Below, piece by piece: positions 62,915 through 64,000 of a stretch of DNA of 64,000 nt. The stretch lies in assembly GCF_030264275.1 (NCBI RefSeq), contig NZ_CP127165.1:2034001-2098000 (forward strand), given 5' to 3'. How positions within the stretch are numbered: the stretch's first letter is position 1; every line of letters starts with the position of its first letter. Position numbers and translations under genes: made by a program. Below the pieces are notes generated by a model, which worked only from the letters and a program-made list of their open reading frames with translations, was not told the DNA's origin and searched no databases. This DNA is from Marivivens sp. LCG002. Its GTDB lineage: Bacteria; Pseudomonadota; Alphaproteobacteria; Rhodobacterales; Rhodobacteraceae.

Positions 62915-63265
62915 CTGCGGACCACCTACCCGTTTTTCTTTTGCGCGAGGCTAGCGAAAAAATCCCGTCCTGTCCCCGTCTAAGCATCAAAACGCAACCA
63001 ATTCGTGCAAATTGCCGCCGTAATGTCACGCCGAAAATCGACACGAAGGCGACAATTTCAATTTTAAATATAACTGAATCAATACGTTAAAAGAAAAATC
63101 GAAAAAATCAGCCACATCAAGAAATGGAACCATTGGAGTCCAATTTCCGCCCCAATCGGACGGCTATATGGGCTCATCCAAAGCCGGACAGCCTCGGAAC
63201 AACGAGCAAAACAACCGGTGAAGATGTTGAAAACGAAGCGACTAATTCCCTGAGGAGGGACGACT
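62915..63265 (+). promoter_or_regulatory. Intergenic control region before the pilin array (351 bp, no gene seen)
   Basis: No credible gene is visible here. An AT-rich stretch (about 63055-63115) stands out from its GC-rich surroundings, as expected for a promoter. A 13-bp palindrome ATTGGA-G-TCCAAT lies at 63132-63144. The first pilin gene has a strong GGAGGG ribosome-binding site at 63254-63259. The exact promoter and operator are inferred. Confidence 0.45.
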
Positions 63266-63445
63266 ATGCTGAACTTTATCAAAAACTTCCGCCGCGACGA
63301 AGACGGTGCTGTGACTGTTGACTGGGTTGTTCTGACCGCTGCTCTCGTTGGTATCGGTGTAGCCGTTGTCGGCGGCGTCAAGACCCAGACCGAGGACGTA
63401 GGCACCTCGATCGCAACCAAAGTTTCGGCTTCGAAGCTTAACTAA
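63266..63445 (+). CDS. Flp-like small pilin, array copy 1
   Basis: A 59-residue protein. A short basic leader ending R-R-D-E-D-G is followed by a hydrophobic stretch A-V-T-V-D-W-V-V-L-T-A-A-L-V-G-I-G-V-A-V, which is the class IVb (Flp) prepilin design with cleavage after the Gly at residue 14. The canonical Glu5-Tyr6 of Flp is replaced by Asp5-Trp6. The mature protein would be about 45 residues with a hydrophilic tail ending S-K-L-N. It differs from copies 2-4 at only three synonymous bases (63271, 63277, 63361). GGAGGG lies six bases upstream. Codons GCT, GGT and GTT are frequent, fitting high expression. Confidence 0.8.
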   Translation: MLNFIKNFRRDEDGAVTVDWVVLTAALVGIGVAVVGGVKTQTEDVGTSIATKVSASKLN

Positions 63446-63474
63446 TTCAAAAATTCTAATTCAGGATCATCAAA

Positions 63475-63654
63475 ATGCTTAACTTCATCAAAAACTTCCG
63501 CCGCGACGAAGACGGTGCTGTGACTGTTGACTGGGTTGTTCTGACCGCTGCTCTCGTTGGTATCGGTGTGGCCGTTGTCGGCGGCGTCAAGACCCAGACC
63601 GAGGACGTAGGCACCTCGATCGCAACCAAAGTTTCGGCTTCGAAGCTTAACTAA
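63475..63654 (+). CDS. Flp-like small pilin, array copy 2
   Basis: A 59-residue protein identical in sequence to copy 1, with three synonymous DNA differences, and identical in DNA to copy 3. It is separated from copy 1 by a 29-bp spacer holding an AGGA ribosome-binding site eight bases before the ATG. The spacer and gene together make a 209-bp unit. Confidence 0.8.
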   Translation: MLNFIKNFRRDEDGAVTVDWVVLTAALVGIGVAVVGGVKTQTEDVGTSIATKVSASKLN

Positions 63655-63683
63655 TTCAAAAATTCTAATTCAGGATCATCAAA

Positions 63684-63863
63684 ATGCTTAACTTCATCAA
63701 AAACTTCCGCCGCGACGAAGACGGTGCTGTGACTGTTGACTGGGTTGTTCTGACCGCTGCTCTCGTTGGTATCGGTGTGGCCGTTGTCGGCGGCGTCAAG
63801 ACCCAGACCGAGGACGTAGGCACCTCGATCGCAACCAAAGTTTCGGCTTCGAAGCTTAACTAA
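63684..63863 (+). CDS. Flp-like small pilin, array copy 3
   Basis: A 59-residue protein; this copy is identical to copy 2 at every base, as is the 29-bp spacer on either side. Its presence shows that the 209-bp unit is repeated head-to-tail without divergence. Confidence 0.8.
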   Translation: MLNFIKNFRRDEDGAVTVDWVVLTAALVGIGVAVVGGVKTQTEDVGTSIATKVSASKLN

Positions 63864-63892
63864 TTCAAAAATTCTAATTCAGGATCATCAAA

Positions 63893-64000
63893 ATGCTTAA
63901 CTTCATCAAAAACTTCCGCCGCGACGAAGACGGTGCTGTGACTGTTGACTGGGTTGTTCTGACCGCTGCTCTCGTTGGTATCGGTGTGGCCGTTGTCGGC
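63893..64000 (+). CDS. Flp-like small pilin, array copy 4 (cut by window end)
   Basis: The first 36 codons of a fourth copy, identical to copies 2 and 3 as far as the window extends. The array continues to the right. Confidence 0.75.
   Translation, partial: MLNFIKNFRRDEDGAVTVDWVVLTAALVGIGVAVVG

Follow-up and report, generated by a model that had tools for sequence, protein, structure and literature searches.

The analysed stretch of DNA, hereafter the window, is 64,000 nucleotides long (C1:2034001-2098000) and belongs to a 3,161,246-base genome assembled in two contigs (99.96% complete). At its 3′ end, positions 63266-64000 hold three whole units and a cut fourth of a head-to-tail repeat (TRF: period 209, 3.5 copies, 99% match). 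The units carry, on the forward strand, major pilin copy 1 (63266..63445), copy 2 (63475..63654), copy 3 (63684..63863) and copy 4 (63893..64000); the last is cut by the window end and is whole in the genome sequence (L007:1194-1373, where window coordinates are L007 coordinates plus 62699). All four encode the same 59-residue prepilin. The three 29-bp spacers between them, on the same strand at 63446..63474, 63655..63683 and 63864..63892, are also identical, the first providing an AGGA ribosome-binding site for copy 2. Units 2 and 3 match at 209 of 209 bp, spacer included, and copies 2, 3 and 4 share one coding sequence, from which copy 1 departs at three synonymous bases: 6 (CTG/CTT), 12 (TTT/TTC) and 96 (GTA/GTG). 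A 209-bp repetition this exact is far beyond chance, and the tandem array of near-identical pilin genes described in the earlier note is real in each of these details.

The same note had advised extending the sequence past base 64000. Doing so completes copy 4 and reveals two further pilin genes, followed by a tad locus. The spacer 3′ of copy 4 is again 29 bp long but differs in sequence. Copy 5 (L007:1403-1582) has 66% amino acid identity to copies 1–4, and copy 6 (L007:1664-1834) has 48%. A search of the whole genome with the pilin returned six matches, all within the array, and a plasmid search against PLSDB returned no match.

Upstream, on the reverse strand, lies a gene for a lytic transglycosylase (SLT, PF01464; 62075..62914). 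In relatives, this gene is consistently found upstream of the array, a proximity that does not necessarily imply a functional link. Between it and the array, CCCTGAGGAGGGAC (63248..63261, forward strand) is a self-complementary ribosome-binding-site motif that occurs 5′ of copy 1 only. It would place the ribosome-binding site in a possible small hairpin and could regulate translation. The motif is also seen in the upstream sequences of related loci from several other genera, again before the first pilin and only the first. No sigma-70 promoter 5′ of copy 1 scored above chance, and Rfam gave no match around the array.

Two hairpins lie towards the 3′ end of the pilin genes. The one 3′ of copy 5 (L007:1605-1634) is stable, with 11 pairs and a weak T tail, and possibly causes partial termination, lowering expression of copy 6. 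The one 3′ of copy 6 (L007:1845-1868) has a T-rich tail and is terminator-like. A stable hairpin stands between the major and the last pilin in most loci, and a programmed RNA element, comparable with the puf operon hairpin, was considered for this position and rejected; a T run comes after many of these hairpins, which makes ordinary termination the simpler explanation.

The tad operon that follows copy 6 has its genes in one direction (L007:2037-12039). It encodes CpaB (L007:2037-2897; TIGR03177, E 3e-60), a secretin (L007:3080-4501), an OmpA lipoprotein (L007:4514-5167), a TadZ-like ATPase (L007:5359-6624), TadA (L007:6636-8120; T2SSE, E 8e-68), TadB (L007:8127-9095; PF19360, E 2e-72), TadC (L007:9104-10096), two TPR proteins (L007:10101-10658 and L007:10685-11542) and an A24 prepilin peptidase (L007:11542-12039). 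A TadE-type pseudopilin is encoded elsewhere in the genome (C1:732377-732505; PF07811 over cut-off). The search for neighbouring tad/cpa genes and a prepilin peptidase that the earlier note proposed was therefore answered directly downstream: TadA, TadB, TadC, TadZ, the secretin, CpaB/RcpC and the peptidase are all clustered with the pilins.

The prepilin consists of a 14-residue leader ending in glycine (MLNFIKNFRRDEDG) and a 45-residue mature part that begins AVTVDWVVLTAALVG, which places it in the 50–80-residue length class. AlphaFold2 models it as a single helix spanning residues 2–58 with no globular domain (pLDDT 77.7). The cleavage glycine is followed by AVTVDW, giving D5-W6 in place of the E5-Y6 of the published Flp motif, GXXXXEY (PMC10934763); copies 1–5 read GAVTVDW and copy 6 GAITVEW, so the charge at position 5 is kept despite the change. 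Among the 203 pilins from related loci, 199 likewise have D-W. The cut-offs of PF16982 and PF04964 were not reached (best PF16982 score 12–20 bits against 33.5), nor was that of any NCBIfam model; a sequence search of solved structures gave only a chance match, and PHROGs gave none and thus no phage link by sequence. Because standard family models miss these pilins, the subunit genes are easily left unannotated. Notwithstanding the altered motif and the missed curated models, the complete tad locus with its own prepilin peptidase supports the Flp-like identity that had been proposed. Judging by their sequences, the pilins are a divergent lineage of Tad-locus pilins outside the strict Flp motif, and the array probably codes for the major pilin of a Tad (type IVc) pilus.

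With a profile of the pilin, 339 of 396 family genomes give a match, and the named relatives that the profile matches are nearly all Rhodobacteraceae/Paracoccaceae, so the host probably belongs to this group. In a class-wide draw of 143 genomes there were four matches, namely the present genome, two of the same family and a weak one outside it. Furthermore, four genomes (G184, G376, G421 and G017) each contain 13–17 matches to the profile, spread across many contigs and several small clusters.

The locus resembles those of Caulobacter vibrioides (PilA, CpaA-F) and Aggregatibacter (flp-1, flp-2, tadV-rcpCAB-tadZABCDEFG), in which small prepilins likewise lie beside the peptidase, CpaB/RcpC, secretin, TadZ, TadA, TadB and TadC. 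The 14-residue leader and 45-residue helical mature pilin also recall Caulobacter PilA, which after maturation spans Ala15 to Thr59 and points its C-terminus outward (PMC11067988). In contrast to the one or two pilin genes of those systems, four identical and two diverged genes are present here; D5-W6 replaces E5-Y6, an OmpA-type lipoprotein occupies the place of CpaD, and the peptidase lies at the 3′ end of the locus. Several Tad pilin genes per genome are also known from Bdellovibrio bacteriovorus, whose flp1-flp4 were called the largest complement in 2017 (PMC5430801), and from rhizobia (PMC10934763, PMC12918737). The pilins of those bacteria differ among themselves, however, and those of Bdellovibrio do not substitute for each other, whereas the main copies of the present tandem array stay identical to one another. 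Our search of open-licence papers did not turn up any account of homogenised Tad pilins in tandem.

To place the array in context, we sampled 83 loci by similarity to the window pilin, with transglycosylase and CpaB on both sides; some may come from one species or from closely related ones (for example, G403 with L041 and L019 with L051), and the locus of the window itself is outside the set. The order transglycosylase–pilins–CpaB is common to all 83. At least two pilins are present in 72, and in 65 of these 72 the last copy is diverged. A near-identical set (at least 85% amino acid identity) of two or three copies occurs in 37 loci, so the four copies of the window exceed the largest set in the sample; the other 46 have no near-identical pair. 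Within the genus, the number of near-identical copies varies between species from two to four. Spacers measure 25–50 bp in the genus and some relatives and 70–550 bp elsewhere. The long spacers mostly contain strong hairpins (z below -2 in 26 of the 30 that separate near-identical copies and in 64 of the other 82), often with T after them, and each copy in those genomes is thus probably terminated separately. The contigs of three relatives (G001:C24, G031:C23 and G243:C2) break off inside pilin genes, which suggests that short-read assemblies lose such arrays and that public copy numbers are likely underestimated.

Across these genomes the major copies are alike inside a genome and different between species, mostly in their C-terminal part. 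Synonymous divergence (pS) among copies 1–4 of the window genome is 0–0.07, against 0.41–0.55 to genus relatives. In a tree, 39 of 43 loci have a near-identical set that forms a single clade, a result that is partly circular because the sets were picked by identity of at least 85%. A comparison free of this circularity concerns the last copies: 54 of 60 have as their nearest neighbour a last copy from a different locus, so the last pilin is a lineage that separated long ago. Copy 6 of the window genome groups with these last copies, and copy 5 is closest to copies 1–4.

The sister species G002 and G003 show how old the array is. They are 97% identical in the leader, 98% in the first spacer, 97% in the region before CpaB and 94% in the last pilin, whereas their major coding sequences are only 83–86% identical between genomes and 91–96% within each. 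Paralogues are thus closer within a genome than to their orthologues although the duplication is older than the split, as in other pairs. The site patterns account for this: positional pairing of the copies is supported at bases 6–66, and pairing by species at bases 126–179. Over four close pairs, positional sites outnumber crossed ones by 10:1 (binomial p 0.006; few sites) and lie more 5′ (Mann–Whitney p 3e-6), though 3′ ends are more variable anyway. The old copy order thus appears to survive only near the 5′ ends. The window's copy 1 shares its differences at bases 6 and 12 with copy 1 of G005, and these two sites are suggestive of remnants of an old first copy missed by conversion. Copy 1 of G005 (L012:1275-1463) also has one extra valine codon right after D5-W6 (GAVTVDWVVVLTAAL), absent in the neighbouring copy; it is perhaps defective, with conversion still to come.

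We consider it likely that an old array has been under concerted evolution, beyond any recent amplification. The earlier note had proposed recent amplification or ongoing gene conversion. The first part stands for this genome, where the full match of units 2 and 3, down to their spacers, indicates a recent event on the scale of a unit; it does not stand for the array, which is older than the species, as indicated by relatives' arrays at the same place, homogenisation species by species and the 5′ traces of copy order. Plain tandem amplification, in which a single pilin was duplicated in each species by unequal crossing-over without conversion of an old array, would account for those two units and for copy numbers that differ between close species (G002 corresponds to G003 plus one near-identical unit with the same spacer). 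We nevertheless regard it as unlikely: the spacer and leader shared by G002 and G003 mean that two copies already existed before these species parted, every copy has a species-specific 3′ half of the coding sequence, and the positional 5′ signals are common across species.

Between G002 and G003, pN is 0.092–0.121 for the major pilin, 0.014 for the last pilin and 0.003–0.018 for seven neighbours, with similar pS; in this one species pair, the major pilin has changed its amino acids about 5–30 times faster than the neighbours, the differences lying in its C-terminal part. A faster major pilin as a general rule was rejected, since between G004 and G005 it is outpaced by the last pilin and by several neighbours. 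One might also read the copies as cassettes for programmed variation of pilin, with copies 5 and 6 donating sequence as in the Neisseria pilE/pilS system, where silent, promoterless variants feed one expressed locus. No gene of the locus changes faster than the major pilin in G002/G003, diverged copies do adjoin the array, and both majors of G003, unlike those of G002, have a C-terminal stretch (TMKTG/TLKTG..ADM) in common with the last pilin. However, the direction of that sharing cannot be polarised, each copy is equipped with a start codon and a ribosome-binding site, unlike a silent cassette, and the major copies are identical, not diverse. Such a cassette system is very unlikely.

Even less probable is an assembly artefact in which the repeat was collapsed or expanded. 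The copy count comes from one assembly, the exact repeat of about 0.8 kb is longer than short reads, and relatives' contigs stop inside pilin genes; the genome is, however, assembled in only two contigs, copies 1 and 4 can each be told apart by sequence or 3′ flank, and the same layout occurs in independent assemblies of relatives. Codon and protein selection without recombination is refuted as the sole cause of identity in the window's array and keeps almost no probability, despite a pilin pS of 0.08–0.38 against 0.47–0.70 in neighbours (G009/G366, G004/G005), as for highly expressed genes, since the spacers are identical too, and the share of differing synonymous sites is 53% for copy 5 and 41–55% between species. 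Codon bias, to which the low pilin pS between some species speaks, may add to the synonymous identity.

We propose the following working model. A promoter 5′ of copy 1 would drive a single transcript of all copies, ended by the stem-loop 3′ of copy 5 and the hairpin 3′ of copy 6. With several pilin reading frames per transcript, far more pilin than machinery would be made; raised dosage, as the earlier note had supposed, is plausible, but since 46 of the 83 relatives do without a near-identical set, copy-number dosage is not essential. The peptidase of the locus would cleave after Gly14, and TadA/B/C would polymerise the 45-residue helices with their exposed C-terminal ends facing out. Homologous recombination, as gene conversion and occasional gain or loss of a 209-bp unit, would keep the major copies alike, giving a uniform filament and carrying a new C-terminal variant to every copy. 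By sequence, copy 5 is an older tandem duplicate and copy 6 an ancient diverged pilin; the last pilin would stand outside this exchange, evolving separately, perhaps as a minor pilin.

Similarity greater within genomes than between species, with homogenised coding sequences, is familiar from rRNA genes and trypanosome arrays (PMC1855330); here, in contrast, the array is short and bacterial, its genes measure 180 bp and its terminal member is unhomogenised. A lineage-wide array whose copies are identical yet change between species would offer a simple, countable bacterial gene-conversion system. Its selected surface would moreover be known, since the Caulobacter Tad pilus is a phage receptor via its C-terminal part, where phage phiCb5 binds PilA (Lys48, Thr51; PMC11067988). 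In addition, the D-W/E-Y contrast makes a test case for D-W substituting in filament assembly. Tad pili are thought to aid Rhodobacterales in colonising algae (PMC8383342). More speculatively, and at fairly low probability, the array could be a device that both homogenises and diversifies, in which conversion unifies the major copies and exchange with a diverged neighbour switches the whole C-terminal surface fast, for example in phage escape. If so, the Tad pilin would be a fast-evolving surface antigen of marine Rhodobacteraceae.
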